64,000 nucleotides of DNA from Thermogemmata fonticola. GTDB taxonomy: Bacteria; Planctomycetota; Planctomycetia; Gemmatales; Gemmataceae. Location: NCBI RefSeq assembly GCF_013694095.1, contig NZ_JACEFB010000002.1, positions 310,001-374,000 of the forward strand. The letters are read 5' to 3'. The position numbers were made by a program, and so were the translations under genes. Shown here in pieces: positions 4,464-24,810 of this stretch. The notes under the pieces are model-generated. The model worked only from the letters and a program-made list of their open reading frames with translations, made no database searches and was not told the DNA's origin. Each line of letters starts with the position of its first letter. The first letter of the stretch is position 1.

Positions 4464-5588
4464 TCATTCTGGCAACGGACCAGGGACTAACGGTGGAGGC
4501 GGCAGCAGAGGACTTCCGTTTGAGGTAGAAGGTGCAACAGCCGGAGAGTTGGCCGGTCTTGCCGGTTCAAGTCCTGGAGGCATCGATGGAGGCGGTTCTG
4601 GGGCTGAGCTGGAGGGTGCGGTTCCCAGTGGAGTTCCCGGTACGGAGGCAGGTGATGTTGCTGGAGGCGAAGTTGCTGGAGAAGGTGTAGGATTGCCCGC
4701 TGGCGTCGAGCGAGCGGGTGGGGTAATCTCCAGCACGCGCCAACGCGAGGGCGCAGAGCGAGAAACCGGTGAGTGATTTGCGTTAGTCGGTGGTGCTGTG
4801 GATTCTCCCCCGAAGCGAAAGACCCCCATTCCCGGCCCTGTCGGGGATTGCGGTCGGGGTTGATAGGGGCCAGCAGCGGCAACATCCGAGATGCTTCCAC
4901 TCGCCGCCCCAAGGATCAGGCGTGTTTCCGGGGCATAAATCGGAAAGCCTCCCCCCTCCGGTTCGTAACGCACTCGCAGGCGGATATGGGTCACATCCGG
5001 ACGATACGTCGGCCAAGGGAGGAAGATCACGTAGCATTCTCCGAAGCGTTCATCGAGGGTTCGGAGGTTTTTCAGTACATCCTTTTTGAACTCCCATCGT
5101 TCCGGCGTCAGAGGAGGGACTCCAGGAGGCCGTGGAGTTTCGTCGATCAAGTCCACGATAAGGTTCCCGTTGGCAACCGCCGGTTTCGCCTCGGCGGTGT
5201 AAAGGAACACTTGGCCGGCGAGACCGGGTTGCATAGCACCACCGGCCGCGGGATTTGGCAGATACTCGATCTTATTCCGCCAAGCGGTAGCCACCTCTGC
5301 CACCGGCTGGGCTTTTTCTCGGCCCAAGAGTTTACTCACGCCAGACCAGGGTTTGCTGCTCCTGTGGACAGGAGTGGTAGGGACTGTGGGGTCTAAGGCG
5401 CTGCCCGCGCTTTGGCTTGTCGAGAAATTGCCGGCGGGTTGAATGGGAGCCGATGGTGGCGTTGGAGCCGCTATCGGGGGCACCCGGTGGTCGTTGGTCT
5501 TCCAGCTCTCTAAGGTGGTACAACCTGTGGCTAACCCAACCCACGCAGGAAGAACACACCACCGGATCAGTGGCCGAACGGATTCCAT
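4464..5588 (-). CDS. Lipoprotein at the end of the secretion cluster
   Basis: A 374-residue protein with a lipoprotein signal: a short basic start, a hydrophobic core and a lipobox LATGC with the cysteine near residue 23. The middle (about residues 95-230) is a folded-looking domain containing ERFGECYVIFLPWPTYRPD and RLRVRYEPEGGG. The last ~100 residues are rich in Pro, Ser and Ala and probably disordered. Its start overlaps the end of gspD by 22 bases, so the two are probably translationally coupled. I do not recognise the family. From position and predicted lipidation it could be a secretin-associated protein, either a pilotin-like factor or a substitute for the absent GspC. That role is inference. 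Confidence 0.8.
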   Translation of the reverse strand: MESVRPLIRWCVLPAWVGLATGCTTLESWKTNDHRVPPIAAPTPPSAPIQPAGNFSTSQSAGSALDPTVPTTPVHRSSKPWSGVSKLLGREKAQPVAEVATAWRNKIEYLPNPAAGGAMQPGLAGQVFLYTAEAKPAVANGNLIVDLIDETPRPPGVPPLTPERWEFKKDVLKNLRTLDERFGECYVIFLPWPTYRPDVTHIRLRVRYEPEGGGFPIYAPETRLILGAASGSISDVAAAGPYQPRPQSPTGPGMGVFRFGGESTAPPTNANHSPVSRSAPSRWRVLEITPPARSTPAGNPTPSPATSPPATSPASVPGTPLGTAPSSSAPEPPPSMPPGLEPARPANSPAVAPSTSNGSPLLPPPPLVPGPLPE

Positions 5589-8500
5589 AGGCGACCCTCC
5601 TTGGTCCCGAAGAGGCGGCGTCGTGCTGGTTCTGCCGCAGATACAGTTGGCGGTGCAGCCCCAGCGGCGGCTCCTGGGGCTGGCTCCACCGCCGGAGGCA
5701 GCACCAATTGATACGGTTTTCCGGGCACCGGCATAACTCTGGACTGTGGGGGTGCTGCTACTTCTCCATTGCTATTTGCGGGATAACTCGGAGTGGCAGG
5801 GATTGCAGTGGGGGCAGAGGCATTCGTTGGGGGGGCGTTCCCAAGGGGCATACCCGTGGTGATCGTGGGCACAGTGACAGGCACTGCGAGAGTCGGCCCC
5901 GGCAGTTGGGGAACGGCAGGGAGGGGCGTCGGCGGCGGCAACAGAGCCTCTGGCTGAATCGTTGGTGTGGCGGGCTTAGTGGGCGTCGTTGAAGTGGAAG
6001 GTGAGGGAGCCGGAGAGGGAACCGGTGTCGGGGAAGGCAGAGGTTGAGTTCCTGGGGCGGGGTTTGCAGGGCTGGGATTTTCTGGCGCTGTCGGCACCAC
6101 CCGTGCCCCCTGCATAGCGGGACCGATAATGTCCGTGCCATGTCCATGTATGCGCTCAATATCTTGAACGCACCAGTTCATGCGTGCCGCTTCCTCCGCC
6201 AGCAGGCGGGCCTGGTCGGCTTCGTTGCGGACGATGTGGGGCGTCATGATGATGAGCACTTCGCGCCGCTGAACCTGATGTTGCCGGTAGCGGAACAAAG
6301 CCCCCACATAGGGGATGTCCTTGAGGAAGGGTAAACCATTTTCGATGCGGCTGTCCTGCTTGGTGATCAGCCCGCCGAGCACAATCGTTTCGCCATCGGC
6401 AGCCACGACTGTCGTTTGGACCGTCTGAATGTTGAAGGCTGGAGCCTGCAAGCCGCCGCCGAGACTGATCAGGTTCGGGCTGACACTGGAGACCTGCGGC
6501 TCGATCCGCATGATAATTTTGCCGTCCGGCGAAATGCGCGGGGTCACGCGCATGACCACGCCCACTTGGCGATAGGTGATGCCTTGCTGAGTCGTCAGGC
6601 CGGTGACGTTGACGTTGGTGGGCACCGGAAAATCCTGGCCCACCTGGATGAAGCCGACCTGGTTGTCCATGACTTGCACTTGGGGCCGGCTCAAGATTTC
6701 CACCCGGCCCTGGGCTTGCAAGGCTCGCAACACCACGTTTAGCGACTGGTTGGAGGCCGTGAAGATGAAGCCGCCGAACGACTGGGACCCAATCCGGCCA
6801 ACACCCAAATTCGACAGTCCCTGGAAACCCACGATGCCCGGTCCAGCAATGCCAGTTCCGAGGGGAGCAGTGGTGTTGAAGTTGAAGCCCGGCGTGCTCG
6901 GACCGCGCTGGAAGAGCACGGGGCTTTGCAAACCGGCTTCGATTCCAAATTCCATTGCGTTGTTCAGTTGCACATCCGCGATCATGACTTGGATCATGAC
7001 CTGGGGCGGCTGGGCATCCAAGCGTTCGATGATCCGCTTGATATCCTTGAACAGCCGCGGCGTGGCGCTGACCAGCAGCGTGTTGGAGACAGGTTCAGCG
7101 ACGAGAACCACGTCGCGTTGCAGGCGTTGGTAGGCGTCCAGGAAACTGCCGCCGCTGGTGGGCGTGGTGGCCGTCAGAACGTTGAGCGAGTCCACGATGA
7201 ACTGATTGACCGCATTTTGCACGTCGGCAGCAGCGGTGTTCTTGAGCTTGTAAACCTCGTAGTAGCGCTCCTCAGTCTCAGTGTCTTCGAGCCGAGCGAT
7301 GAGAGCTTCGATGAGGTCCATGTCGGTGCGCGAGCCGGCCACGATCAGCGAATTGGTGCGGTCATCGACGGTGAGGCGCAGGTCCACGAGCAAGGCGCCT
7401 TCCGCCACTTCTCCAGTGGGTGTGAGCAAGGGGCGGGGTTGGCCCGCTTGGAGCGCTCCTGCCGCACCGATGCCGCCCAAGCCGCCTAGCCCTCCAACGC
7501 CCACTTGCTGCTGCCCCGTGAACAACTGCCGGATCAGGTTAGCCATCAGCGAGGCTTGGGCCTTCTTCAACTGAAATACCTTGACGATCGATCGGGCCGC
7601 CGAGACCGTATCCAGCTCTTCGATCAACTTTTCGATCAAAGTCATCGTCTTGGCTGGAGCCGTAACGATGATGGCGTTGATTCGTGTGGAGGGAATAAGA
7701 TGCACATCGCTGAGCAGGCCGCTTTCAGCGACCAGCTTGCCATCCACGCTGGAGTACAAGCGCAGAGTGTGGCTTTTAGTCACCAGCCCGCCGCCGATCG
7801 CCGTGCCCACGGTGGGGACAAAGGTTTGCACCAAAGCTCCTTCCTGCTGGAGAGCGGCACCGCCGGGCTGCAGTGCAGCGAGTCCCGCACCGGGTTGCTG
7901 GGCTCCCAGGCCGCCCAGGCCGCCCAGGCCGCCCAGTCCGGCGGCTCCGCCGACTCCTCCGACCCCCAGCCCGCCTGCGGCACCACCCAAGCCTCCTAAC
8001 GCCCCCAAACCTCCGAGGGCGCCAAGCCCCCCGACTCCCCCAATACCTGTCGTCAAACCTGCTGTGCCCCCAGCAGCGGGTGCGACCGGCTGTTGGAACT
8101 GCGCTTGTACCAGCGGGTTGACCACATTGACGTTCAGCGCGTTACTGAGAACTTGGGCAATTTCCGAAGCGATACCGTTGCGGATGCGAATGACCCGCAC
8201 TTCCTGAATCGCCTGGGACTCGGAGGTGTCCAGGTCTTGAATGAGGCGTTCGATATCCTCCAAGTCCGCCCGCGGACCTTGCACATATACGGTATTAGTG
8301 GGAATGTCGAAGGTGACACGGAACTGGTTTTGTGTGATGGGGTCGCCGGGAAAGCGGGCGTTCCAGAACTGTTGCAATTGCAGAGCCACAATCTGAGCGG
8401 AAGCCTTCTTGAGACGGAAAGCGCGAGGGAAGACGGTGTCAGCATTCGGTCGGTCGATCCGGCGGATCTCCCGCAGAATGTCATTGAAGCGGGCCTGCGG

Positions 8501-11500
8501 AGCAGCCACCAGGATCGAGTTGAATCGGGGCAAGGCTAGGAAATAGATGCCGCGGTTCTGTTGCGGTTGCAAACCGGCTAGGCCCGGCAATCCTGCTACT
8601 CCACCGACTCCTGCGGCAGGTTGTTGGGCCAAATAAGTACCACCGGGACCAGCGACCAACACACGGGAGAATAGCGTGGTCAGCCAGTTGGCCACCGCAT
8701 TGCAGTCCTGATACTCCAACGGCACGACTTCCAACCGCGGTTGAGCGTCGCGGGAAATTTCCCGCAAGGTTTCAATCAAGTCCAGGACCAATTGCAGATC
8801 GGTGGCGTTGGTCGCCCGCAGGATGATGGCATTAAGTTCCGGCAGCGGAACAACAGTCACAGGGCCGCGGGGTGCCAGCTCTCCAGGAAGAGGCGCGGGT
8901 GGTACGGGCTGGCCGGGAGGGGATGGAGGTTGCATCGGTGGAGGTTGCATTCCTCCGGCGGCGAGGATCCCGCTAGGCCCCTGCACGCCTTGGGGTGCGG
9001 AGGCTGGTTCCGTTGCAACGGCGTGGTGAAGGGCTGAGGCAGGCCGCTCTTGTAACGTACCGCGTTGCCGGGTCTTGGGGGGGCCGTCGAGGAGGGGATC
9101 GTAAACTGGAAAGCCGGAGGCAGTGGACGCATGGCTCGCGGCTGATGAGGGTTGAGCGTTAGAGTCTGGCGAAGTGGTGCGGGATGGTTGATCGTGGGTG
9201 TTGGTGTTGAGGGCCGACGGGGCCTCCATGCCCCAGGAGTCAAAATTTCGGGGTCCCTCCTGCGGATCGGCGAGAGCCTGGCGCCCGCCACGTCCGCCTC
9301 CGCCTCGTCCTCCCCCTCCTCCGAAGCCTCCGCCGCCGAGTCCGCCTCGTCCTCCGCCGAAGCCGCCGCCCATCGCTGGAGCACCGAAGCCTCCGCCGAA
9401 GCCGCCGCCGAGGCCAGGTCCCCGTCCTCCTCCGAAGCCTCCGCCAAAGGGGGTACCGCCGAAGCCTCCGCCGAAGGGAGTACCGCCGAAGCCGCCACCG
9501 GCAAAGGGACTGCCGCCAAAACTACCGCCGGCAAACCCTCCTGGACCCCGTCCGCCGCCGAAGCCTCCCATGCCCCCGAAACCAGGCCGGCTTTGCTGGG
9601 GATTGATCCCTTGGATGGCGAGCACAGCCGCTTGGACTACATTGGGATCCAAATTCCCAAGCCGGACAAGTCGGGCTACGTCCGTGGTGCTCGTGGAAGC
9701 TCGATCGAGTTGCTCGACCAACGCCTTGATGTCCTTGAAGAGCGGCTCGGAACAATTCAGGATGAGGCTGTTGGTGCGGTCATCGACACTGACCGTCAGG
9801 GCAGGGGGCCGTTGGTTTTGCTGATTCCCTTGCGGCAGAGGAGCGAAGGGGAAGATCACGGGAGCTGTGGGTTGCCCGCCTCCCGAACTCATCGCTGAGC
9901 GGTAAACATCTCGGATGATTGTAGCCATTTCGGCGGCGTCGGCGTTTTTCACGGGAAGTATCCAGGTTTTCAAAGCCAGAGCGTCATCATCCGCTCCCCG
10001 GTCGATGTAGTTGGCTAGAAGACTTTCAATGGCCAACAGGTCCGCCGGGCTGGCTTTGACGACCACCAAGGCGTTGGAACTTTTGATGGCTACAACGCGA
10101 ATGCGATTTGGGTTGGTGCCCGCGGGGGTGGAGTCACCGCCTCCGCCGCCGAAGAGGCCGCCGAGTAGGCCCAGAGGACCGCCTCCGCCGCCTAACAGGC
10201 CGCCTAATCCGCCTCGCCCTCCACCAGGACCTCCCTGTTGCCGCCGCTGCGGGCCGTTGAAGATTTCCGTGATCTCTGCGGCAGCCTCCTCCGCCGATAC
10301 ATTCTTGAGCTTGATCACCTTGAACAAATTCTCCGTGGGCGGAGTTCCCACCGTGTAAGTTCGCATCAAGCCCGTTAGGATGTCCAAGGCCTCGGTGTCC
10401 TCGCTTTGGATGATGATGCGATTGCCGACCACCTGAATGATGACCGGTTTCCCACTCGTTCCTTTGGGCGGTGGAGTCTCGCCCTTTTTCGGCTCCACTT
10501 GGGTGTGGACATAGCGGTAATCACCGGCGGAAGTGTTGGAAGCGGCTTCGCGTTGGGGTGCTGCTTTTGTGGAGAACCCCGGTACTCCCTGGAGGGGGTT
10601 GATCCCTCCGCCGTCATTGCCGCTCTGCCGTTGACCTGGATAGGGATTACCGCCCGGACTGGGCACGGGCGCAGGGCTGGGGTTCCTCGGCGGATTGGGA
10701 GCGTTGGGATCGACCACGATAGCCGGTTTACCCAACTGCTGGAGCGTCTTCGCTAGATGTTCCGCCAAGATCGAAGCGCTGCCGTCCGGCAGGGTGAAAG
10801 AGCGGATGCGCGGATCGAGTTGTCCGCCCGGCCGTTCGCCAAGGTCCGCCAAGATTTTCTTGACATCGTTGATTTGCGCTGGAGTTCCCTTGACGAGCAG
10901 CCCCGGAGCGACTCCGGTGGTATGGGCCTCGACCGTTGGTCCCCCCGCGGTACCGGTGCTGGGATACAACTTGGCGACAGTCGCCGCCGTCGTCGTGGGG
11001 TCCAAGATGGTCAGAGGGATAAATTCCGTCGTCACCGTGGTTTCACCACCCTGAACTAGGCTCCGCATCTTCTCCATGATGATCAGATGTTCTTCAGGTG
11101 TGGCGGAGACGATCACTTCATTCGTTTGAGCCAAGGGGTAGATGCGGAGGGTGGGATGATCCGCTTGGAGGGTCTGCGCGATCGCCTGAGCAGTACCCGG
11201 AGGTACAGGATACTTCCGCAATTCCGGATCCCGAATGACCAATGGGGGTTGGAAGGGATCGCGTGGTTTGTCGAAGTCCTCGATGATCTTCTTCGCCAAT
11301 TGAATCTTTTCGGGCGGAGCGGTGATGGTCACCGAATTGGCCTTGGTGTCCACAGCGATCTGCACGGTTTTGACACGCCCAGCAGCCGGGGCGAAGGAGG
11401 AGCGGTCCGGTCCACCTCGGCGATCCCCACGTGGATCGAAGCCGCCGCCGAAGCGGGGATCGAATCCCCCCCAGCCGCCGCCGAAGCGCGGATCGAAACC

Positions 11501-12442
11501 CCCACTCCCGTAGCGCGGATCGTAGTAGGGGGGAGTCGTCGGAGTAGTTCCCGCGACGGTAACCTGAGCGTTATCGGACAGCAAGGTCTTCAGATGCTCG
11601 GCGACTTCCTGGGCCCGCTTGTACTTGCAGACGTGAGTGAGGATGTCTCCTTGGGACAGCTCTGTTTCCACTTTCTGTAGGGTTTCCAGGATGCGCTTGA
11701 TATTCCCCGCTGTGTCTAATACCACCAGGGCGTTGAGCTTAGATAGGCTCGAAACCATGCCGAAAGGAGAAAGCAGGCGCTGAACTTCGGGAGCGGTTTC
11801 CTCCACGGACAGAGTCTTGAGGGGGATGATCACTTGGACCAGTTCCGTCCGTCCACGGGTGTGCAATTCATTCAATTCGATCCGAGGGACCCAAGAAGCA
11901 TCGATCTTCTCATCCGAGGGATGGATATAGAAGCTGATTTGGCGGCGGATGAGGATAAAGCGCTGCTGGATCAGGGCTTCATTGATCAAGTCCACCACTT
12001 CGCCAATGGTGAACTTGCGATCCTTGGGAGGTTGTAAGGTGACGCTTCCCGTGGGGCGCACGGTCAGAATCGGGGTCAAACCGCTTTCTTTGGCGAACCA
12101 TTCCAGCACATCGTCCCAATGAGCATTCTTGAAGTTGACCGTAATGGTACGCTCGCTGCCTGAGAAAGAGGGTTTATCGGCGGGTTTGTCTTTGTCAGCC
12201 GGCTTATCAGGGGTCTTATCTGAGGGTGAACTGGTTCCCCCATTGGCAGCCTTGCTTCCCACTTCACCCGGTTTTCCCGGTGGAGTCATCGGCTTACCGA
12301 CGGGAGGCGAAGTTTGGGCTGCAAGATTGGCCGCGAACATCAGGCTGCCAATCGCCAACATCCACCCGCTCAGAAAGTGGCTGATGCCAAGGAACGGAGC
12401 ACGCCCATGATACGCTCCTGTAACGCTCAGGCGTGACGGCAT
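5567..12442 (-). CDS. gspD: Giant type II secretion secretin (GspD-like)
   Basis: A 2291-residue secretin, about three times the usual GspD length. It has an N-terminal signal sequence (about 1-43), a Pro/Lys linker, then an N0-like domain starting ERTITVNFKNAHWDDVLEWF (about 97-170). After that I count about thirteen NolW-like repeats with the pattern xNxLIVxA...I..LI..LD, for example TNSLILNCSEPLFKDIKAL and INAIIVTAPAKTMTLIEKL. The pore-forming secretin domain occupies about 1805-2075, with VEILSRPQVQVMDNQVGFIQ and ETIVLGGLITKQDSR. Gly-rich stretches lie near 734-767, 950-1055 and 1460-1527, and the tail (about 2110-2291) is Pro-rich. The ATG has a good GGGGGAAG site. It is expected to form the outer-membrane channel of the system encoded upstream. 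Confidence 0.93.
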   Translation of the reverse strand: MPSRLSVTGAYHGRAPFLGISHFLSGWMLAIGSLMFAANLAAQTSPPVGKPMTPPGKPGEVGSKAANGGTSSPSDKTPDKPADKDKPADKPSFSGSERTITVNFKNAHWDDVLEWFAKESGLTPILTVRPTGSVTLQPPKDRKFTIGEVVDLINEALIQQRFILIRRQISFYIHPSDEKIDASWVPRIELNELHTRGRTELVQVIIPLKTLSVEETAPEVQRLLSPFGMVSSLSKLNALVVLDTAGNIKRILETLQKVETELSQGDILTHVCKYKRAQEVAEHLKTLLSDNAQVTVAGTTPTTPPYYDPRYGSGGFDPRFGGGWGGFDPRFGGGFDPRGDRRGGPDRSSFAPAAGRVKTVQIAVDTKANSVTITAPPEKIQLAKKIIEDFDKPRDPFQPPLVIRDPELRKYPVPPGTAQAIAQTLQADHPTLRIYPLAQTNEVIVSATPEEHLIIMEKMRSLVQGGETTVTTEFIPLTILDPTTTAATVAKLYPSTGTAGGPTVEAHTTGVAPGLLVKGTPAQINDVKKILADLGERPGGQLDPRIRSFTLPDGSASILAEHLAKTLQQLGKPAIVVDPNAPNPPRNPSPAPVPSPGGNPYPGQRQSGNDGGGINPLQGVPGFSTKAAPQREAASNTSAGDYRYVHTQVEPKKGETPPPKGTSGKPVIIQVVGNRIIIQSEDTEALDILTGLMRTYTVGTPPTENLFKVIKLKNVSAEEAAAEITEIFNGPQRRQQGGPGGGRGGLGGLLGGGGGPLGLLGGLFGGGGGDSTPAGTNPNRIRVVAIKSSNALVVVKASPADLLAIESLLANYIDRGADDDALALKTWILPVKNADAAEMATIIRDVYRSAMSSGGGQPTAPVIFPFAPLPQGNQQNQRPPALTVSVDDRTNSLILNCSEPLFKDIKALVEQLDRASTSTTDVARLVRLGNLDPNVVQAAVLAIQGINPQQSRPGFGGMGGFGGGRGPGGFAGGSFGGSPFAGGGFGGTPFGGGFGGTPFGGGFGGGRGPGLGGGFGGGFGAPAMGGGFGGGRGGLGGGGFGGGGGRGGGGRGGRQALADPQEGPRNFDSWGMEAPSALNTNTHDQPSRTTSPDSNAQPSSAASHASTASGFPVYDPLLDGPPKTRQRGTLQERPASALHHAVATEPASAPQGVQGPSGILAAGGMQPPPMQPPSPPGQPVPPAPLPGELAPRGPVTVVPLPELNAIILRATNATDLQLVLDLIETLREISRDAQPRLEVVPLEYQDCNAVANWLTTLFSRVLVAGPGGTYLAQQPAAGVGGVAGLPGLAGLQPQQNRGIYFLALPRFNSILVAAPQARFNDILREIRRIDRPNADTVFPRAFRLKKASAQIVALQLQQFWNARFPGDPITQNQFRVTFDIPTNTVYVQGPRADLEDIERLIQDLDTSESQAIQEVRVIRIRNGIASEIAQVLSNALNVNVVNPLVQAQFQQPVAPAAGGTAGLTTGIGGVGGLGALGGLGALGGLGGAAGGLGVGGVGGAAGLGGLGGLGGLGAQQPGAGLAALQPGGAALQQEGALVQTFVPTVGTAIGGGLVTKSHTLRLYSSVDGKLVAESGLLSDVHLIPSTRINAIIVTAPAKTMTLIEKLIEELDTVSAARSIVKVFQLKKAQASLMANLIRQLFTGQQQVGVGGLGGLGGIGAAGALQAGQPRPLLTPTGEVAEGALLVDLRLTVDDRTNSLIVAGSRTDMDLIEALIARLEDTETEERYYEVYKLKNTAAADVQNAVNQFIVDSLNVLTATTPTSGGSFLDAYQRLQRDVVLVAEPVSNTLLVSATPRLFKDIKRIIERLDAQPPQVMIQVMIADVQLNNAMEFGIEAGLQSPVLFQRGPSTPGFNFNTTAPLGTGIAGPGIVGFQGLSNLGVGRIGSQSFGGFIFTASNQSLNVVLRALQAQGRVEILSRPQVQVMDNQVGFIQVGQDFPVPTNVNVTGLTTQQGITYRQVGVVMRVTPRISPDGKIIMRIEPQVSSVSPNLISLGGGLQAPAFNIQTVQTTVVAADGETIVLGGLITKQDSRIENGLPFLKDIPYVGALFRYRQHQVQRREVLIIMTPHIVRNEADQARLLAEEAARMNWCVQDIERIHGHGTDIIGPAMQGARVVPTAPENPSPANPAPGTQPLPSPTPVPSPAPSPSTSTTPTKPATPTIQPEALLPPPTPLPAVPQLPGPTLAVPVTVPTITTGMPLGNAPPTNASAPTAIPATPSYPANSNGEVAAPPQSRVMPVPGKPYQLVLPPAVEPAPGAAAGAAPPTVSAAEPARRRLFGTKEGRLWNPFGH

Positions 12443-12899
12443 GGTTTCTTCCCCCCAAGATCGCTGGACTGCTGGAACGGGTCAGCGCAACCCCGGCGCG
12501 AAGTTGCACGAGATCTTTGTCACTATCCCGAAGTCTCAGTTCCCCCGTTGCACGACCACTGCCTTATTCCAGGCAGCCCGTGGCGGAGGGATAACGTCTG
12601 CTTGGGATGCAGGCAACGGCATTTTGCCGCTGCCCGGCAATTTTTAATCCCCCTCGTTTTCTGATCCTCCGTGTTATTTCTTCCCTCGGATTCGCTTGAC
12701 GTTACAGCGGTGCTGAGGGTTGGCTGCCTGCCGCTGGGCGGTTGACTCTATCTTACACGGTCTTCCTATCTGACTGTGTCTTGTGCAGCTTTTGGGCTTG
12801 CCGGCCTTTGGATAGACATCCCCCTAGTCTGCATTGTACTGCCTCCCCTAGGGGTCATGGTGAGAAGCTGATGAGAAAACAGGGAGATGGGTGATTTTC
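12443..12899. other. Gap inside the secretion cluster upstream of gspD
   Basis: 457 bases separate the gspM-like stop from the gspD start, far more than elsewhere in the cluster. There is no credible gene. A short palindrome CCCCTAGGGG sits at 12845-12854. The gap is large enough for a separate promoter or leader for gspD, but I cannot point to a clear -35/-10 pair. Confidence 0.4.
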
Positions 12900-14594: not shown

Positions 14595-14816
14595 GGAAGC
14601 ATCGCCTGTGGGTCGTAGGGAGGTAAATCCTCGGTTTCTGTGTTACTCCCTGCAGAGAGGGATCCAGAGGACGGCCATCGGGGGTGTCTTCATCCCGATT
14701 TGCTGGAACTCCATCGCTGCTGGGGGGATTGTGTGTCTGTTCTCCATGTTTGGCGAATTACGGCATTGTGGTCAATTCGCGGTTTGTTCCTCAGTCCAAC
14801 ATTGAGTTAGGATCGC

Positions 14817-16424: not shown

Positions 16425-16822
16425 TCCATTATTTACACGTCAGGCGTTCCTGTTATAGGTTCGGGGGCTGGTTTCCATGTTGTGGGATCGTTCACAAGTT
16501 TTGTCACCTTCCCTTTCGCACGTATGTAAGCTCCAACGGTCGGATTCCAGACTCCCCTTTGCACGCCGGCGAGGCACGACTCCAGCCCTTAGGGTGATTC
16601 TTACCCGTGGCACAATAGGGCGGGAGATGCCCTGAGCATGTTTTTTCTTCGCCCAAGATGTTTGGAGGAAACAAAGATGCCAGGGAACACAACTATAGCG
16701 ATTGTGTGTAAGGGATAGACTGTGTCCAGAGGACAGCATTCGCTGACGCGGCAGTGCAGGGGGGGAATGGACCGGGTAATGGGTCAGGGTCATGATCGCA
16801 TTCATATCGACAGGTACCATCA
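16425..16822. other. Gap between gspK and gspL
   Basis: 398 bases with no supported gene. The open frames on either strand have no motif and poor composition. It probably serves as spacer or leader sequence for gspL; I see no strong repeat or terminator. Confidence 0.4.
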
Positions 16823-18460
16823 CTAAGGATTAATGCTCCGCTGGGGGGAATAAGCGCGGGGTTGGTCCAAATCGCCCAAGTCGCGGAAGTAGAGAATCCG
16901 GGGGGCGCCGAGATTGCTGTCAATGACGGCTTCCACCCGTGCGGTGGGACCGCCCTCGGCGAAGTAGCCAACGACCTCGACCCTGTACACCATACTGGTG
17001 CCGGTAATGAGTCGTTCCAGATTCCGGAATTTGCTCACCGACAAGCCGGCTTCGGTCAGGAGCCAAGCCCCCGTCATCGCTTCCAAAGAAAAAGGCACGA
17101 TGTTGTCGCGCACGGCCAAGATGTTATCCACGTCGGTTTCCGTCAGGCCGGGTAATCCTAGTAGGGCTTCCCGTGAAGCAGTGTTGACATTGAGACGTGG
17201 GATCATCTCCACCGCTTCGCGCGTTGAAATCTTGTCGAGAAGAACGGGGAGTAACTCAGCCCGGCGGGCCGGATCGTTCAGGGGCGAGAAATAGACGAGG
17301 GATTGAGGAGGATTCGAGCGGCTGTTGCGCTGCAAGACGATACCCGTATTGATCAAGTCCAGGACCGAATTGATCGCCCGCCCACTGGTGGCAATTGTGG
17401 CCAAACGGGCTTCGACCGCAGAGATCAAGTCCTCAGCGCCGACCGGTACGTACACTTCCTGTTGTTGTTTACCCATTCCCATTCCCCTGCCCATCCCTTT
17501 GTTTTGGGACTGAATTTGGCCGTCGTCTGTGACGCGGAGCAGGTTATTCGATCCGAAGATTTTGACAGCGACAATGTAGGCGGCCATGTCTGCGTCGAGG
17601 CCGGAATTGAGCAGGGCTTGATAGATGCCGACGATGTCGTCCCCGTTAATCCAAATGCGGAGAATCCCGGAGGAATCGACATTGACTTCGCGGCCATAGA
17701 CAGTCAGGTAGTCGCTCCAGCCCCGATCCACCCACCCGGCATTTTCGTCATCGATACCGTTGCGGTTGCGGTCGGTGCCGTAGAGCAATTGGGGTGTGAC
17801 ACCTTTGACCAGAAGCAGTTCATCGAGAGTATTGAGGGGGCCGTTTTTGGCCGAGTAAGGCTGGGCCAGGCCGCGGTAGTAAGCACTCTCGGCACCATTG
17901 GGGCGGGTGTCTTCGTTGCTGTCCACCCAGTCTACGATGGCGTCCGCAATCTCTGGCGTCATGTTGGGCAGCTTGAGCAACGCGTTGTAGAGCGTCTCAC
18001 CGGTGGGATCGAGCGCAATTAGAGCATTGATGTTGATTTTACCTCCTTCATCTGCCAGTCCGAAGCGCTGTTGATACCCCCCTCCCGTTAGCGGAGCCAC
18101 ATGGATGATGGAAAAGTAAGCTTGTTTACCGCTAGGGTTGGTGGGATCGAGCGGGACGGGAATATCCTGGAAGTAGGCGGGATTGTCATAGGGGTTGCCT
18201 ACATCGAGAGCCAGCAACTCGGGGTCGGCCAATAACGCTGCTGCGTAGTGAACGCCAGAGGCGGCAGCGGCACGTACTTGAGCATAATCCGCACTGCGCA
18301 CCCCGGCTCGCAATTCGGACACCATCGCATCGCTGAAGCGGTAGGCGACGAGAGATAACACCAGGATCACTATGAGCACCGCGATCAGAACGTATCCCGG
18401 TCGCGGATCGCGGCCGATCCCGCGCAGCCGACCTTGGTTTCCTAAGGGATGAGGTGTCAT
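16823..18460 (-). CDS. gspK: Type II secretion minor pseudopilin GspK
   Basis: 545 residues. The prepilin leader ends in PRPG before YVLIAVLIVILVLSLVAYRF. The +5 position is Ala rather than Glu, and a missing Glu5 is a known feature of GspK. The large globular part contains GLADEGGKININAL, a GspK hallmark, and two helix-hairpin-helix-like segments (LLKLPNMTPEIADAIVDWVD and LLGLPGLTETDVDNILAVRD). GspK sits at the tip of the pseudopilus with GspI and GspJ. At 545 residues it is longer than the usual ~330, mainly through insertions including a Gly/Met/Lys stretch near residue 325. Its start codon overlaps the gspJ stop in an ATGA arrangement. Confidence 0.92.
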   Translation of the reverse strand: MTPHPLGNQGRLRGIGRDPRPGYVLIAVLIVILVLSLVAYRFSDAMVSELRAGVRSADYAQVRAAAASGVHYAAALLADPELLALDVGNPYDNPAYFQDIPVPLDPTNPSGKQAYFSIIHVAPLTGGGYQQRFGLADEGGKININALIALDPTGETLYNALLKLPNMTPEIADAIVDWVDSNEDTRPNGAESAYYRGLAQPYSAKNGPLNTLDELLLVKGVTPQLLYGTDRNRNGIDDENAGWVDRGWSDYLTVYGREVNVDSSGILRIWINGDDIVGIYQALLNSGLDADMAAYIVAVKIFGSNNLLRVTDDGQIQSQNKGMGRGMGMGKQQQEVYVPVGAEDLISAVEARLATIATSGRAINSVLDLINTGIVLQRNSRSNPPQSLVYFSPLNDPARRAELLPVLLDKISTREAVEMIPRLNVNTASREALLGLPGLTETDVDNILAVRDNIVPFSLEAMTGAWLLTEAGLSVSKFRNLERLITGTSMVYRVEVVGYFAEGGPTARVEAVIDSNLGAPRILYFRDLGDLDQPRAYSPQRSINP

Positions 18461-19842
18461 CGTCCACCTCCGCCGAAGCCGCCGCGTCCGCCGCTGATTC
18501 CACCTCCTGAACCCCCGCCCATCCCGCCTGCTCCCCCTCCTCCAATGCCCCCTCCGCCGCCTCCGATGCTCCCTCTTCCTCCCGCTCCTCCGCCGCTTCC
18601 ACCGCCGGAGCCACCGACGCCGCCTTTCCCTCCACCTATGCCGCTTCGTCCTCCGCCGCTTCCACCGCCAGAGCCGCCGACACCGCCTTTCCCTCCGCCG
18701 ATATTGCTGCCTCCGCTTTTGCCAGTACCTCCAGTACCGCCAGTGCCACCGCTGGTTTCTGTTCCTGTGGTATCGCCACCGCTGCCATCATCCGGTTTTG
18801 ACTCGACTCCTGAAGGTACGACAGGATCGATCAATGACACAGTGGCGTGGCCAGGGGCTGTCCGGATCGGAATGATTTGGCTGACAGTGCGGTAGATTGG
18901 CTCCTGGGGACGCTGGGGGTCCGTCAATTCAAAGGTCAGGGTGACTCGTACCGCCCGTGGTGGACCAGCGATGCCGCTTCCCGTGGCGCTCATGCCGGAA
19001 CCATCCCACGTGGTGCTCCAGGCGGTGCCGTCGTAGTATTCGAACTGAACGTCCACGATATGGTCGGCCACAAGAGCGGCCTCTTCGTTTTCCCGGTTCG
19101 GGTAGGTCGAATTCCCGATCTGATCTGCGGTGACCCACGGCCGCTCCTCCCGACACAATCCTCCCGTGGCGCTGCGCCAGTACACGATGCGCCGTAGATC
19201 GGAGGATTGCTGACTTTCCGCCACGGCGGTGCCAAGAAGCACGCCCGGTGTGCTCAGCGATGGGGGAACTTGGCTGGCAAAAATCACGAGGCGGGGGGGA
19301 TCATCATCGTAACCGTAGATGCCGGCGTGGAACGGCAGGGTCGGCGCAGGCGCGGAAGACGTGGTCGTACCCGTCATGGTGGGGTCCACCATCCCGGTGT
19401 TCGAGTCCCCGCCGCCTGTATCGGTGCTGCCGCTGGTATCTCCGGTGGTGCCGCTGCCGTCGGTTGTCCCGCTGGTTCCGCCACTACTGAGGCTAGTTCC
19501 GCTGGCGCTACTGAGAGCTTTGGGCGGCAAGGGTCCAAGCGTCTGCGCCAAATCCAAGGCAATGCGGTTGAACACCCCGCGTGCCAGGTCTTCCGTCTGA
19601 GCCATTTCCCGGCTGATCTGGGTTTGAGCCAGCGTCATGTGGAAAGCCAAGTACAAGCCGCCGAGAAGGAACGAGCCGATAAGAGTCGCTACGAGCAATT
19701 CCAGCAAGGTGTAAGCACACCGTTGCTTCCTGGGGACGGGAACCGCGCCAATTCTCCGAGCGAGCAAACGCCAGTTTTCGCCTGAGAAGGGGAGGGGCAC
19801 AAGCGGGTAAGAATGGGCCGGCACGATGGCAAACTGTCTCAT
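18457..19842 (-). CDS. gspJ: Minor pseudopilin GspJ with Gly-rich tail
   Basis: 461 residues. The prepilin segment is RKQRCA then YTLLELLVATLIGSFLLGGL (about 42-66), preceded by an unusually long leader of about 42 residues; the start has a good GGGAGG site. A GspJ-like domain follows (DLARGVFNRIALDLAQTLGP; RRIVYWRSATGGLCREERPW; VQFEYYDGTAW). The final ~110 residues are almost entirely Gly, Ser and Lys, including a near-perfect 21-residue tandem repeat. The residue before cleavage is Ala, not the usual Gly. It overlaps gspI and gspK by 4 bases on each side, so the three are translationally coupled. Confidence 0.88.
   Translation of the reverse strand: MRQFAIVPAHSYPLVPLPFSGENWRLLARRIGAVPVPRKQRCAYTLLELLVATLIGSFLLGGLYLAFHMTLAQTQISREMAQTEDLARGVFNRIALDLAQTLGPLPPKALSSASGTSLSSGGTSGTTDGSGTTGDTSGSTDTGGGDSNTGMVDPTMTGTTTSSAPAPTLPFHAGIYGYDDDPPRLVIFASQVPPSLSTPGVLLGTAVAESQQSSDLRRIVYWRSATGGLCREERPWVTADQIGNSTYPNRENEEAALVADHIVDVQFEYYDGTAWSTTWDGSGMSATGSGIAGPPRAVRVTLTFELTDPQRPQEPIYRTVSQIIPIRTAPGHATVSLIDPVVPSGVESKPDDGSGGDTTGTETSGGTGGTGGTGKSGGSNIGGGKGGVGGSGGGSGGGRSGIGGGKGGVGGSGGGSGGGAGGRGSIGGGGGGIGGGGAGGMGGGSGGGISGGRGGFGGGGR
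18590..18715. repeat. 63-bp tandem repeat inside gspJ
   Basis: Two adjacent 63-bp units (18590-18652 and 18653-18715) are nearly identical, each starting CCGCCGCTTCCACCGCC. They encode the repeated 21-residue Gly-rich block KGGVGGSGGGSGGG plus spacer in the GspJ tail. The length is a multiple of three, so copy-number change would keep the reading frame. Confidence 0.75.
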
Positions 19843-20321
19843 GAACCACCTCCCATCGAGGAACCGCTGGCGGGATCGGGTCGCGTGGCTTCACCCGCCG
19901 TTCCCCACACGCTGGGGTCCAGCATCAATTGACTCAGGGTGATCGTGACGGTTTGTCCCTTGACCTCTCGGCTGACACTCACACTGACCAGATACAGATT
20001 CGGGATGTCATAGTTCTGGACGGTTAGGGTCCAGCTCCAGTTGGCATCGTCTCCGTCAAAGGTGCCGCTGCTGCTTTCCAGGGGGATCGCTCCGCATTCG
20101 ACTTCGGCCAGTTTGGCCTGGGCTAATCGTGTTCCGCGGCTCTGGTGGCGTGCTTCCAGCTCCAGATCGGCTCCCATGTCCACCAAGCGGGCGATCGCCA
20201 CTAGGGCGGTGAGGAAGATGGCCAGGGCCAGAAGCACTTCAATCAAGGACAGGCCAGCTCGTTTCCTCCCCCTGAGACGAGGTTGCAAGATTTCACAGGT
20301 TCTCGTGGCTGCGGACTTCAT
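19839..20321 (-). CDS. gspI: Minor pseudopilin GspI
   Basis: 160 residues. The leader ends KRAG before LSLIEVLLALAIFLTALVAI, with Gly at -1 and Glu at +5 as expected. The downstream segment (QAKLAEVECGAIPLESSSG, WSWTLTVQN, YLVSVSVSREVKGQTVTITL) matches the GspI pattern of LAxxKLxE followed by a short beta domain. GspI nucleates the pseudopilus tip complex with GspJ and GspK. It overlaps gspH and gspJ by 4 bases on each side, which places it in the tight H-I-J-K block. The C-terminal Gly/Ser extension is short. Confidence 0.9.
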   Translation of the reverse strand: MKSAATRTCEILQPRLRGRKRAGLSLIEVLLALAIFLTALVAIARLVDMGADLELEARHQSRGTRLAQAKLAEVECGAIPLESSSGTFDGDDANWSWTLTVQNYDIPNLYLVSVSVSREVKGQTVTITLSQLMLDPSVWGTAGEATRPDPASGSSMGGGS

Positions 20322-20866
20322 GGCCGCCCCCCGCCAGCAGCAGCACCCGGCGGAGTCCGCACCACCGCTGCTGTGCCGGTAATCCCGCGTATCCGTACAT
20401 AAATGGGGGACTGATTCCCTTCACGTACCTCAACGAGCACCTGATCTTCCTTGCAGGTGCCGTCCGGCTTGAGCGTGGCGATGGTGATCCAATCTCCCTC
20501 CTGCACGACTTCGGAGTCCCCGTCCGTTAGGACATGGACGGTGGCTTTGTCCAGTCGGTCCTCGGTGACGCTGGCGTTGAAGGCGGGGGGATCATCTGCT
20601 GGCAAAGCGGCAAACTCCGTCCCGTCCGGCGCGACACGTAGACGGCTGCCGTCACTGGAAACAGCCACACGATACCACTGCCCCCGTTCCATGGCCTTGG
20701 CACGTGCATCCGCAATGCGTGCTCGAACCAAATCGGCGGCTGCCTTCTGACGGGTGTTGGCGTAATTCCCCTCCAGCGTCAGTGTAACTGCCATTCCCAG
20801 GATGAGAATGACAGCCAGTACGACCAGCAACTCCAGGAGAGTGTAACCCTTGCGAGGGATTACCAT
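20318..20866 (-). CDS. gspH: Minor pseudopilin GspH
   Basis: About 182 residues from the ATG at 20864-20866, which puts a short basic leader MVIPRKG directly before YTLLELLVVLAVILILGMAV. An in-frame start 63 bases further upstream (20929) would give an implausibly long leader. Gly is at -1 and Glu at +5. The following KAAADLVRARIADARAKAME and WYRVAVSSDGSRLRVAPDG match the GspH/FimT family, the minor pseudopilin that joins the tip to the GspG shaft. The stop overlaps the gspI start by 4 bases. Confidence 0.88.
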   Translation of the reverse strand: MVIPRKGYTLLELLVVLAVILILGMAVTLTLEGNYANTRQKAAADLVRARIADARAKAMERGQWYRVAVSSDGSRLRVAPDGTEFAALPADDPPAFNASVTEDRLDKATVHVLTDGDSEVVQEGDWITIATLKPDGTCKEDQVLVEVREGNQSPIYVRIRGITGTAAVVRTPPGAAAGGGRP

Positions 20867-20983
20867 AGTTTTTCTTCCGGCACGAGCAGATACGGTCAGG
20901 CGAAGGAACCGCGCAGCCTTGGCTGGCACATTTTCCGAGGTCGTTTTCCCGGACGTTTTCCCTCGGTGTGAATAACACTCGTT

Positions 20984-21421
20984 TTAGCGCAGCGGCCATT
21001 GGAGCGGCGGTTTGTTTATGTTGTGCTGGGGACAGAAGACCACGGGCCGCTCCTTGTAATTCCCCTCCACTTCATCTGTCGTTCGAACCAGTTGCCAGTA
21101 ATACCGTGTGCCCCAAGGGGAAATCAGGCCTTGCGTTCCCTGTTCCAGATAGGGGGCGATGAGGGCAAGTCCCTGCTCCCCTTCCGGCGGCCACTCGCCA
21201 TGCTTGAGATAGTACGTCTTGAGCGCTTGTTCGATCGCCCGCATGTCGTTTTGAGCACGCCCCTCTTTCGCCTCCTCAAGATAGCGGAAGAGGGCAATGC
21301 TGGCGGCCGAGGCCAGAATCACCAGAATGGCCACCACGATAAGTACTTCCAAAAGTGTGAAAGCTCCGCGAAGGTGGTGTCTTCGATTCGTGATGTCTCG
21401 CGTCACCGTGCGTAGCACCAT
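20984..21421 (-). CDS. gspG: Major pseudopilin GspG
   Basis: 145 residues, the normal GspG size. The leader RHHLRGA precedes FTLLEVLIVVAILVILASAA, with Ala at -1 and Glu at +5. The family pattern continues with RAQNDMRAIEQALKTYYLKH and GEWPPEGEQGL, and a C-terminal SPWGTRYYWQL resembling the GspG DPWGxxY loop. GspG polymerises into the pseudopilus shaft that pushes substrates through the secretin. AGGAG lies a suitable distance before the ATG. The gene stands 242 bases after gspF and 117 bases before gspH. Confidence 0.93.
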   Translation of the reverse strand: MVLRTVTRDITNRRHHLRGAFTLLEVLIVVAILVILASAASIALFRYLEEAKEGRAQNDMRAIEQALKTYYLKHGEWPPEGEQGLALIAPYLEQGTQGLISPWGTRYYWQLVRTTDEVEGNYKERPVVFCPQHNINKPPLQWPLR

Positions 21422-21663
21422 GATTGGGGTCTCCTGTCAGACGGAACGTTGCCAATTCCGTGGTACCACCGCTTGGAAGCGGAAGTAGACCACAGCCGGC
21501 TTGAACCTCATCCTTACATACCCGTTATAGCGGTCAGGGGTTTAATCAATTATGAGAATTGCAGGCGAAGGGAGCGAACAGCGGTCTTGGATTCCGGCCA
21601 ACCCAAGTGTCTGGTCAGCTTGGTAAGGGGAGGGAGCCGACGATAGTTCCCTACTGCGATTTT

Positions 21664-22887
21664 TCAGCCCACCGTGCTGCCCATCTTGAAGACCGGCAGA
21701 AGCAGACCCATGACGATGAGCAACGTTACCCCGGCCATGACCAAGAGCATGATTGGTTCAAGCAATTTGACCATCAATTCCAGATTGCGGCTGGTGCGCT
21801 TTTCCAAACCATCGGCAATATCCACGAGCACCGTTTCTAGGCTGTTGGATTCCTCAGCGATGGTAATCATTTCGACGACATCGGGGGGAAAATAACCGCA
21901 GCGCCGCAGAGGATCGGCTAGTTTTTGGCCTGCAGTGACGTTTTCCGCGCTTTTTTCGATCGCTTGAGCCAACACGCGGTTGCCCGTCGAGTCCTTAGCA
22001 ATGTTCAAGGCTTTGAGAATCGGAATACCGTTGTGCAGCAGCGTTCCCAGAATCCGGCAGAAGCGGGACAGCGCGAGAGAAAGAAAGATCGGTCCGAAAA
22101 GTGGCAGGCGGACTTTGAGACGGTCCACGATCAGGCGCCCATTTTCTGTCTTGGCCCAACGGCGGAATAGCACTAAAGCGGTCAGCGCCACGCCGAGCAC
22201 GAGCCACCAGTAATTTTGCAGGAAATGACTGAAGGCCATCAAATACACCGTCAAAGTGGGGAGTTCCCCTTTTTCTTCGAGCTTTTCAAAAATTTTCGCG
22301 AACTTGGGAACGAAGAAGATGACCAGGATGTTGAGGACAGCAAAGCCGGCGACCGCCAGGAACACCGGATAGGCCAGCGCGCCGACGACTTTGGCTTTGA
22401 GATCCTCCTGATGTTCCACGAAATTGGCGATGCGCTTGAGGACGTCCTCTAGGAAACCACCCTCTTGGCCAGCCCGGACCATACCCACGACCAACTCGCT
22501 GAAGACACGGGGGTGAAAGGCCATAGCTTGCGCCAGTCCTGTGCCATCGGCTACCCGGCTGCGCACATCCCGGATCACAGCCTGGAGCGTGGGATTGGTG
22601 CTCTGCTTTTCCAATAGCTCTAGGGAGCGGAGCAGCGGCACGCCGGAACGGAGGAGGTCCGCCATTTGAGAATAGAAGGCCGCCAGTTGCCGCCCTTTGA
22701 CCCGCCGTGCCCAAAGCCCGCCCGTACTCCCCGGACCAGTCGCTTGAGTTTTGGCCAGAGCGATGCGCAGGGGAAATAGACCCCGGCTATCCAGAATTGC
22801 AGCCACTTCCCGCTCGCTGTTGGCTGTCACAATTCCTGTAGCCTTACTGCCGGTCCGGGCTAATGCTTCATAAGTGAAATCAGGCAT
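21664..22887 (-). CDS. gspF: Type II secretion platform protein GspF
   Basis: 407 residues, typical for GspF. It starts MPDFTYEALARTGSKATGIV, the usual GspF opening, and has two repeats of the T2SSF domain: FYSQMADLLRSGVPLLRSLE in the first and FCRILGTLLHNGIPILKALN in the second. Three transmembrane segments are visible near residues 168-190, 215-240 and 375-400. GspF is the inner-membrane platform that couples the GspE motor to pseudopilus assembly. The gene follows gspE by about 90 bases. Its Shine-Dalgarno is weak. Confidence 0.95.
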   Translation of the reverse strand: MPDFTYEALARTGSKATGIVTANSEREVAAILDSRGLFPLRIALAKTQATGPGSTGGLWARRVKGRQLAAFYSQMADLLRSGVPLLRSLELLEKQSTNPTLQAVIRDVRSRVADGTGLAQAMAFHPRVFSELVVGMVRAGQEGGFLEDVLKRIANFVEHQEDLKAKVVGALAYPVFLAVAGFAVLNILVIFFVPKFAKIFEKLEEKGELPTLTVYLMAFSHFLQNYWWLVLGVALTALVLFRRWAKTENGRLIVDRLKVRLPLFGPIFLSLALSRFCRILGTLLHNGIPILKALNIAKDSTGNRVLAQAIEKSAENVTAGQKLADPLRRCGYFPPDVVEMITIAEESNSLETVLVDIADGLEKRTSRNLELMVKLLEPIMLLVMAGVTLLIVMGLLLPVFKMGSTVG

Positions 22888-22977
22888 GGCAGTCTTCGCG
22901 GAATCGGTTCATCAATGCACTAGACGGGCGGAAGCGCTAGATACCTCCACCAGGGGTTCCTAGCTTATCGGCTCAGC

Positions 22978-24810
22978 TCAGGATATATCTCCTGCGGTGG
23001 TTCGGGCTACCTCATCGATGGTAGTCAAACCTTTGAGCACTTTCCGCCAGCCATCCTGGCGCAGAGTGATCATACCGGCTTTGAGGGCTTCCAACCGGAT
23101 GACGCCGGCGTTGACCCGCTGCGTGATCAAGTCGCGGATCACGTCATTGGTGACGAGCAGCTCGAAGATGCCGCTACGCCCCCGATAGCCTGTTTGGCGG
23201 CAGGAGCGGCACCCCGTGCCCTTCCACAATGGCACAGGACCGTCACCGGCATATTGGGTGGCAGCTTCGTATTCTTGGAGTATCTTCGCCAAAGCCGGGG
23301 GGAGATTCACCAAGGCAGATAGACCCGTGTTGCTCTTTTTGCGCAGTGGGAAATCGAGCGGCAATTCCTCCACCGGAAGAGTCGCTACGGTCTTGCAATC
23401 CGGACAGATGGTCCGCACCAGCCGCTGAGCCATCACGCCTTCCACGGTGGAAGAGACCAGGAATGGCTCCACTCCCATATCAATCAGGCGGGTGAAGGCG
23501 CTGGGGGCGTCGTTGGTGTGCAACGTGCTGAAGACCATGTGCCCGGTCAGCGAGGCGTGGATCGCCATTTCCGCAGTTTCCAGGTCGCGAATTTCGCCAA
23601 CAAGGATCACATCCGGGTCATGGCGCAGGATCGCGCGCAAGGCGTTAGCAAACGTTAGCCCGATCTTGGGATGGGTCTGAATCTGACTGATCCCGACCTG
23701 ATTGTATTCCACCGGGTCTTCAACGGTGATGATCTTGAGGGTTTCATCTTTGATTTCATTGAGGGCAGAGTACAGGGTCGTGGATTTACCGGAGCCGGTG
23801 GGACCCGTGACCAGAACGATCCCGTGGGGGCGATCGATTAGTTGCTTGAAGGTGTGATAGGTGTCTGGCAGCATGCCCACGGCGGCCAGGTTGAACTCCA
23901 TGCGTCCTTTGTCCAACAGACGCAAGCAGACTCCTTCGCCGTGGATCATAGGGATGATCGAGACGCGCACGTCGATTTCCCGGCCTTGAACTTTCATCTT
24001 GATGCGGCCATCTTGCGGCAGCCGCTTTTCCGCGATGTTGAGCCGGGCCATGATCTTGATACGGCTGATGATGGCAGCGGCAAAACGATTGATTTCCGGG
24101 GGCAGATTTTGCTCTTGCAACAGACCGTCGATGCGGTACCGGATGCGTAGGCCGTGCTCTTCCGTTTCGATGTGAATGTCGCTGGCCCGTTCGTTGGCGG
24201 CTTCGATGAGAATCTGATTGACCAGGCGCACCACCGACGCTTCCTGAGCCTGTTTGGCCATCTCGCTGTCGTCGGCTTCCAACGCCTCCAGAAACTCAAT
24301 TTCCTCCTGTCTGTCCTTAGCTTCTTCAGCTAAAGCGGCGACCGTGTCCCCACCCACGCCGAAGTATTGCTTGATCAACCGAGCAATTTCCCGCGGCGGA
24401 GCCAGTACCGGCAGAACGTGCAACCCCGTCAGTGTCTGAAATTCGTCGATGGCGTAGGCATCGAACGGATCGCCGGTGGCGACAATCAGCGTGCCATTAT
24501 GCCGGCTGAGGGGCATGAGATTTTTGCGGTGAACCAGGCGTTGCGGCATCTGCTCCAGCAAGCTGCGGTCCACCTGTACCTTGCCTAGGTCCACCAGTTC
24601 CAAGCCCAATTCCTCTGCCAAGACCGGCAAAAGAGTTTCTTCCTTCAGGAAGCCTTTGTCGATGAGCACTTGGTGCGGAGGGTAGTCTGGCGCAGCGGCC
24701 AAGGCTTCCGCCGCACGCCGGAGGTTCTCTTCACTGAGCATGCCCCGCCGGCTGAGCATGGCCAATAATTGATGTTGGCTGGCGCTGGAGGACATCACAC
24801 TGCTAGACAT
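22978..24810 (-). CDS. gspE: Type II secretion ATPase GspE
   Basis: A cytoplasmic secretion ATPase that powers pseudopilus assembly. I choose the ATG at 24808-24810 (610 aa) because GAGGG lies 5 bases upstream; a GTG 48 bases further out (24858) is possible. An N-terminal MshEN/N1E domain (about 10-150) precedes the core. The core has ASDIHIETEEHGLRIRYRID, Walker A GPTGSGKST (about residue 337), the Asp box ITVEDPVEYN, Walker B ILVGEIRDLETA, the His box TGHMVFSTLHTNDA, and a CPDC...CRSC tetracysteine zinc motif (about 470 and 535). All catalytic motifs look intact. It is the first gene of the secretion cluster. Confidence 0.95.
   Translation of the reverse strand: MSSSVMSSSASQHQLLAMLSRRGMLSEENLRRAAEALAAAPDYPPHQVLIDKGFLKEETLLPVLAEELGLELVDLGKVQVDRSLLEQMPQRLVHRKNLMPLSRHNGTLIVATGDPFDAYAIDEFQTLTGLHVLPVLAPPREIARLIKQYFGVGGDTVAALAEEAKDRQEEIEFLEALEADDSEMAKQAQEASVVRLVNQILIEAANERASDIHIETEEHGLRIRYRIDGLLQEQNLPPEINRFAAAIISRIKIMARLNIAEKRLPQDGRIKMKVQGREIDVRVSIIPMIHGEGVCLRLLDKGRMEFNLAAVGMLPDTYHTFKQLIDRPHGIVLVTGPTGSGKSTTLYSALNEIKDETLKIITVEDPVEYNQVGISQIQTHPKIGLTFANALRAILRHDPDVILVGEIRDLETAEMAIHASLTGHMVFSTLHTNDAPSAFTRLIDMGVEPFLVSSTVEGVMAQRLVRTICPDCKTVATLPVEELPLDFPLRKKSNTGLSALVNLPPALAKILQEYEAATQYAGDGPVPLWKGTGCRSCRQTGYRGRSGIFELLVTNDVIRDLITQRVNAGVIRLEALKAGMITLRQDGWRKVLKGLTTIDEVARTTAGDIS

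Follow-up and report, generated by a model that had tools for sequence, protein, structure and literature searches.

A planctomycete type II secretion gene cluster with a secretin expanded to 13 N1-type domains and an apparent GspM-GspC fusion

We analysed a 64,000-nucleotide stretch of the Thermogemmata fonticola genome (hereafter the window; positions 310,001 to 374,000 of contig NZ_JACEFB010000002.1, C2:310001-374000 of a 4.81-Mb, 97%-complete genome), the minus strand of which carries genes resembling those of type II secretion systems (T2SS). Our reading, to which we assign a probability of roughly 0.7, is that these genes encode a T2SS of a derived subtype with a long periplasmic tube, present in planctomycetes and in Verrucomicrobia-titled genomes. 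The translated open reading frames (ORFs) give the order gspE-F-G-H-I-J-K-L-M-D followed by a lipoprotein gene. Judged from sequence, there is strong support for a T2SS core (E to M, and D), for a secretin with its N-domain array expanded to 13 N1-type domains, for an apparent single M-C polypeptide replacing separate GspM and GspC, and for a lipoprotein whose gene comes immediately after that of the secretin. An earlier sequence-only reading of the window had described ten T2SS-type components on one strand, with a lipoprotein gene in the last place, as a divergent, envelope-adapted machine. The gene content was confirmed, and the reading as a machine of this kind is supported by the better scores of T2SS models, the class-wide synteny, the expanded secretin and the existence of a separate pilB/pilT locus.

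The secretin gene gspD (5567..12442; this and all following window coordinates are on the minus strand unless stated otherwise) encodes 2,291 amino acids (aa). The sequence-only reading had noted that D was large and not where its size came from, namely, as we parse it, 13 tandem N1-type domains versus 3 in ordinary secretins. By hand, the protein could be divided into an N0-like domain (11918..12154, about residues 97-175, recognised by eye from the translation, with no Pfam N0 match), an array of 13 N1-type domains with a beta-alpha-beta, insert, beta-beta-alpha layout (7013..11845, about residues 200-1810), several of them with Gly-rich insert loops, a secretin beta-barrel/gate domain (6227..6724, residues 1907-2072; PF00263) and a Pro-rich tail. 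The best PDB matches of the gate domain were the GspD structures 5wq7 and 6hcg, and the NCBIfam gspD model scored 232 bits versus 184 for PilQ. Pfam detected 10 Secretin_N stretches plus Secretin (3.7e-48). A half-motif hidden Markov model (HMM) seeded from the hand parse, which supports the delimitation of the array, found 13 repeats in the window GspD and none in shuffled sequences, a count to be read with the drift of this model, since the window-trained seed gave 13 window repeats and, after iteration, 10. Counted by Pfam, N domains numbered 10 in the window, 7, 28 and 49 in three other loci (L057, L170 and the 4,830-aa L049, respectively), and 3 plus N0 in a canonical one (L177). The secretin matched 22 distinct PDB sequences, the longest of 901 aa.

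Secretins of this size occur throughout the window's order. Searched with the GspD C-terminal region, 70 of the 102 genomes of the window's order matched at 1e-30, 55 of them with frames of 1,893-2,442 aa and 15 with shorter frames, several of which, judging by their coordinates, lie near the end of a contig. In the window's class, its own genome aside, 34 of the 35 genomes with a match had frames of 1,211-1,495 aa and one had 655 aa near a contig edge. Outside the class, 12 genomes possessed secretins of 2,431-5,073 aa; the other matches in the phylum (110 of 292 genomes matched the secretin query) were in the main ordinary secretins, a few frames reaching about 1.3 kaa (thousand aa). We also scanned named genomes, taking the best 80 of 586 relatives. 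Sixteen of the 19 named genomes checked contained frames of 3,809-5,088 aa and the other three frames of 1,770, 1,968 and 2,927 aa; each had one strongly expanded secretin, the second-longest frame in any of them being 1,704 aa. Among them were a complete Phycisphaerales chromosome (CP070772.1, 4,808-aa frame) and Verrucomicrobia-titled genomes (3,964-4,311 aa), a naming to be taken with care because the titles of metagenome-assembled genomes can mislead (e.g., rows titled 'Akkermansia muciniphila' or 'Leptolyngbya'). A sequencing artefact behind the giant frames was ruled out by a genus mate with a 95%-identical D region and a 2,442-aa frame, and also because one-contig and complete-chromosome genomes are among the giants. 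In a quick tree, some forks of which were unresolved, the window fell among rows titled Gemmataceae or Fimbriiglobus, a group sister to the other Planctomycetia. Separate clades held the giants from Phycisphaerae and from Verrucomicrobia-titled genomes, and the canonical 700-950-aa secretins stood apart. The length of the array follows lineage, with a range from about 11-13 to over 40 N domains within Phycisphaerae, and probably also the width of the envelope. This lineage series of 3, 7, 10-13, 28 and 49 N domains is a natural experiment in the possible adaptation of a trans-envelope machine to the width of the envelope. The 13 pattern matches on viral contigs included no relative.

Textbook secretins are gates of a few stacked rings. 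At 2.5-3 nm per N ring, the 13 N rings of this protein would stack into a tube in the periplasm, roughly 35-40 nm long and leading up to the outer-membrane gate. Two points call for caution: three of the 13 domains come from the hand parse and the window-trained profile, beyond the 10 seen by Pfam, and the extra domains are taken as rings at the sequence level, so that they could instead bind partners or fold back. A rival explanation would make them side domains, a folded-back collar or the product of neutral repeat growth in an otherwise ordinary T2SS. Array length does vary widely between relatives, as repeat tracts do, and the long Gly-rich inserts of several domains must be accommodated in or around a ring. 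We nevertheless consider this explanation unlikely, since dozens of independent genomes have the array in an open frame free of interruptions, the named genomes have a single strongly expanded secretin each, and the N domains of secretins are not known to form anything other than stacked rings.

The expanded secretin is accompanied by an unusual GspM. GspC had been reported as missing from the cluster, and no separate gspC could be found: there was no PF11356 match at E<=10 anywhere in the host genome, where a GspC of normal architecture might have been located. Its HR domain, by contrast, appears not to have been lost but fused to the C-terminus of GspM, a protein of 564 aa (12900..14594). 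The N-terminal GspM/PilO domain (13872..14594, residues 1-241) was modelled by AlphaFold2 (AF2) with pLDDT mostly 62-84 to residue 190 and lower after; Foldseek retrieved PilO as its top match (2rjz PilO, E 3.1e-4; 3jc8_Oa, 9.1e-5) and also Amuc_1100. An RDIF motif (residues 245-248) lies ahead of an immunoglobulin (Ig)/cadherin-like insert (13524..13799, about residues 266-357; cadherin/Ig matches, AF2 strands at 271-356 with pLDDT 34-60), and a putative GspC HR-like domain follows (13002..13523, about residues 358-531), assigned through a chain of hhalign comparisons. This layout recurs in relatives, where all 20 M proteins have an N-terminal GspM/PilO part, an RNLF/RDIF/KNIF-like motif (degenerate in some rows), a Pro-rich linker and a small beta domain; 19 orthologues measure 347-605 aa, 6 of 20 have a T2SSM match and 3 of 20 a He_PIG match in the Ig/cadherin-like insert. 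In the window and in L056, L057, L062 and L187, an Ig/cadherin-like (He_PIG-type) domain separates the RNxF motif from the HR-like domain; some other planctomycete M-C fusions lack it.

In planctomycetes with ordinary secretins, a free-standing gspC lies right between gspM and gspD. The L110 locus, in the same order, encodes a 175-aa M, next a C in an ORF of its own (T2SSC match, 2.5e-4) and then a 728-aa D, and L177, L178, L181 and L192 combine a short M (188-196 aa) with a separate C. In hhalign comparisons, the M C-termini at class level matched the free-standing GspC HR with 96.2% (E 2.2e-9 over 103 columns, the motif among them), and those of the window group matched the class-level ones with 98.2% (E 4.9e-14); with the lipoprotein as control, values stayed at or below 0.14%. 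An HMM built from free-standing C only and run on 11,685 ORFs placed ten M proteins (E 3e-6 to 6.3e-3) next in rank to the C proteins, and no decoy came between them. With PF11356, 47 of 292 genomes had matches at E<=0.1 and 3 exceeded the cut-off, the window's class contributing only two weak matches (E about 0.025), neither over the cut-off. Several loci brought in by PF11356 matches were left out, as their frames were unlike real proteins in the locus orientation.

Several observations run counter to the fusion and would suit the possibility that GspC is truly absent, the M C-terminus being an unrelated beta domain and the two membranes being coupled by other means. Compared directly with GspC, the window-group C-termini reached 44.4% over 18 columns, and the window M was not among the 40 matches listed for the free-standing-C HMM; it is linked to that profile only via the M proteins of its relatives, one further profile step away. 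The AF2 model, built with seven sequences, had pLDDT of about 22-52 over the HR part, which lacked Foldseek support as well, and PDB profile searches returned no match with the HR part and no T2SS or type IV pilus (T4P) match with the whole of M. We regard a true absence as very unlikely, given the positional complementarity with free-standing gspC, the motif and Pro-rich linker, the profile evidence and the precedent of PilO-PilP fusions in T4P (PMC3169554). The fusion of the GspC HR domain to GspM would correct the idea that these bacteria do without GspC and, furthermore, would realise the 1:1 GspM:GspC stoichiometry suggested from those T4P fusions (PMC3169554). GspC-HR contacts the N0 domain of GspD in canonical systems, as described in the same source. 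The M-C polypeptide may sit in the inner membrane via the one helix of GspM and hold, through its HR domain, the N0 ring of the secretin at a fixed 1:1 M:C ratio, while the G-K pseudopilus would work as a piston inside the tube or at its base and folded exoproteins would exit through the tube.

The M-C fusion, the expanded secretin and the lipoprotein after gspD go together, and canonical loci have none of the three. We scanned 123 loci, of which 121 had a scorable D (108 expanded, 9 canonical and 4 unsure; L111 and L185 gave no D row). One locus scored as canonical without M or C (L183) was a wrong ORF pick, leaving 8 real canonical loci. Among the 56 expanded loci with at least 1 kb upstream, 34 had a fused M-C (9 of them outside the HMM training set) and none had separate genes; in the remaining 22, a point against our reading, neither M nor C was recognisable next to D. 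The canonical loci showed separate M and C in five cases, M alone in two, C alone in one and a fusion in none. The lipoprotein was recognised by HMM after 61 of 105 expanded D genes and after none of the 8 canonical ones; of the other 44 expanded loci, 31 had a lipobox ORF in that position.

The lipoprotein gene (4464..5588, 374 aa) overlaps gspD by 22 nt. The predicted protein has a lipobox with Cys23, invariant in 34 of 34 aligned rows, an Ig-like beta-sandwich at about residues 95-229 and a Pro-rich tail; the sandwich was the confident core (pLDDT >90 over most of it) of the AF2 model built with 33 relatives. Lipobox ORFs follow 77 of 105 expanded D genes compared with 35 of 491 other genes, the latter value being the background of what is a loose pattern. 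Both the lipobox Cys and the adjacency agree with what is expected of a pilotin, a lipoprotein encoded with its secretin, and the protein, a predicted pilotin-like or anchoring partner, probably assists the secretin in getting to the outer membrane or being kept there. On the other side, no known pilotin was among the listed structure matches. No Foldseek match passed 1e-3, and the matches were Ig-like only (best VIA Z 8.2), so that we assign the protein to no family. In L055, L058, L059 and several Planctomycetia-titled loci (L186, L188 and L195), gspD and the lipoprotein gene appear separate from the remaining gsp cluster, which suggests that the two form a tighter unit.

The other genes of the cluster point to a T2SS. 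The secretion ATPase gene gspE (22978..24858, 626 aa, GTG start, alternative ATG at 24810) matches Pfam T2SSE (4.5e-135) and MshEN (2e-20), and scores 608.8 bits with NCBIfam gspE versus 577.1 with pilB, both under cut-off. The inner-membrane platform gene gspF follows (21664..22887, 407 aa; T2SSF 7.9e-59; NCBIfam GspF best, 373.7 bits, under cut-off). The pseudopilins comprise the major one, gspG (20984..21421, 145 aa; T2SSG 2.5e-6 and N_methyl; NCBIfam gspG best), a gspH-like gene (20318..20929, 203 aa) with N_methyl, the pilin N-methylation motif, as only Pfam match and identified by NCBIfam gspH (best, 9e-9) and gene order, a gspI-like gene (19839..20321, 160 aa; T2SSI 6.7e-5, under cut-off; NCBIfam gspI 8e-9), gspJ (18457..19842, 461 aa; T2SSJ 3.9e-7) and gspK (16823..18460, 545 aa; T2SSK_1st 2.7e-19; NCBIfam T2SS_GspK 1.4e-23). 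The long Gly-rich C-terminal part of GspJ contains tracts resembling those inserted in the GspD N domains. The gspL-like gene (14817..16424, 535 aa, TTG start) was placed by a weak PilM_2 match (5.3e-4, under cut-off) and by its position, shared with orthologues in relatives, and M by its PilO/GspM fold and the T2SSM matches of its orthologues. Pfam cut-offs were exceeded by E, F, G, J and K, and nothing in Pfam matched the window M or the lipoprotein.

Seven proteins had a decisive NCBIfam match (E, F, G, H, I, K and D), and for all of them the best model was a T2SS one. J and M had no match in NCBIfam and L only a weak PilM-like one; moreover, every NCBIfam equivalog score remained under its curated cut-off, which tells against a straightforward assignment. 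One might therefore ask whether these genes build a T4P, or a dual T4P/T2SS machine, with the expanded secretin as the pilus gate. The models nearest to L are those of PilM and the structures nearest to M those of PilO, which either system would be expected to show, and the type IVa pilus (T4aP)-like locus found elsewhere in the genome (C3:310-328 kb), containing pilB, pilT (C3:313 kb), a second pilB, pilC and pilins, has no own secretin among the four found in the genome, making secretin sharing possible. Still, T2SS models outscore T4P ones for the seven proteins, GspK is present, and pilT is missing from the cluster, a pilB/pilT/pilC set lying elsewhere. These scores and that separate locus led us to reject the pilus as the principal interpretation, and we hold it to be quite unlikely. 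Minor pilins and a 1,439-aa protein were also seen at the T4aP-like locus (L205/L206; G000:C3, 301-332 kb), which may borrow a secretin.

A T2SS interpretation fits the wider gene context. Synteny of E to M, D and the lipoprotein gene, which the sequence-only reading had proposed to search for in planctomycete genomes, was found class-wide. The position of gspD at the end, taken there as odd, is real and not odd, as canonical planctomycete loci run ...L-M-C-D. The 4-nt overlaps at H/I, I/J and J/K were seen as described, and the supposedly loose remaining junctions are indeed gaps of 54-457 nt, with the exception of the overlapping D/lipoprotein pair. GspO is likewise lacking from the window but not from the genome. 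Of the peptidases marked by Peptidase_A24 matches, two belong to Tad loci, and a further one is an orphan of 486 aa, of the GspO/PilD type and with CxxC..CxxC at its N-terminus (C2:175.9-177.3 kb; Peptidase_A24 matches at C2:176.5-177.0 kb; PF01478 pieces, 56.3 bits together), encoded outside the cluster, ~134 kb off on the same contig.

Compared with the canonical proteobacterial T2SS (Gsp/Eps/Out), this system shares all of E to M and D, and its secretin C-terminal domain is nearest to solved GspD structures, but C is fused to M, D comes last and is extended, and an Ig-like lipoprotein is encoded next to D where no pilotin of the PulS/AspS type was recognised. The canonical planctomycete and Sumerlaeota-titled loci (L110, L177, L178, L181 and L192) have the same ...L-M-C-D order on one strand, and differ by their separate gspC, their 706-941-aa secretin and the lack of a lipoprotein after D. 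The PilO-PilP fusion of Pseudomonas putida (PMC3169554) is comparable in that PilO is the counterpart of GspM and PilP that of HR; it belongs to a T4P, and the accessible part of that paper mentions neither a cadherin-like insert nor secretin size. In the open-access literature, as covered by titles and abstract openings (subscription papers and preprints being outside that scope), nothing turned up on expanded secretins, giant ones included, or on a GspM-GspC fusion. Many giant genes have been described in Planctomycetes in a work whose main text, as far as accessible, does not contain 'secretion' (PMC5177795), and the accessible main text of PMC6668835 does not contain 'planctomycet'.

In canonical secretins, domains N0-N3 project into the periplasmic space (PMC10128026). 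Crateriform structures in Planctopirus fasten the inner to the outer membrane, at about 104 per cell, some with 12-nm fibres, and similar fibres occur in Gemmata, Gemmata obscuriglobus having been studied too (PMC5394234). Such structures are envelope complexes tying two membranes, and a long secretin fixed in both of these would suit them; the accessible part of that paper names no secretin and gives no composition for them, and the giant secretin is a testable protein candidate. Both the length of the tube and this link are conjectural. Going further, the expanded secretins could be single-polypeptide envelope-spanning pipes, of ~35-40 nm in the Gemmata type and ~120-150 nm in Phycisphaerae and Verrucomicrobia-titled genomes, forming the core of crateriform structures across an enlarged periplasm, with array length as a molecular ruler of the envelope; we offer this as a speculation that is doubtful at present.

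Apart from the giant GspD, the host genome encodes three secretins: two Tad loci have one each, and the other is a TPR-secretin of 1,411 aa. The Tad loci (L011 and L012; G000:C10 and C6) each have an RcpA-type secretin and a prepilin peptidase. The TPR-secretin (L009 11729-15964; G000:C1, about 942 kb), with TPR-like N-terminal repeats recognised by eye, lies beside genes resembling those for a permease and a prenyltransferase, and lacks T2SS, Tad or pilus partners in its vicinity. In the window, a gene named by eye as Hsp70/DnaK-like lies directly upstream of gspE (25512-27359, minus strand) and, beyond it, an ORF named in the same way as HNH-endonuclease-like (27567-28277, plus strand).

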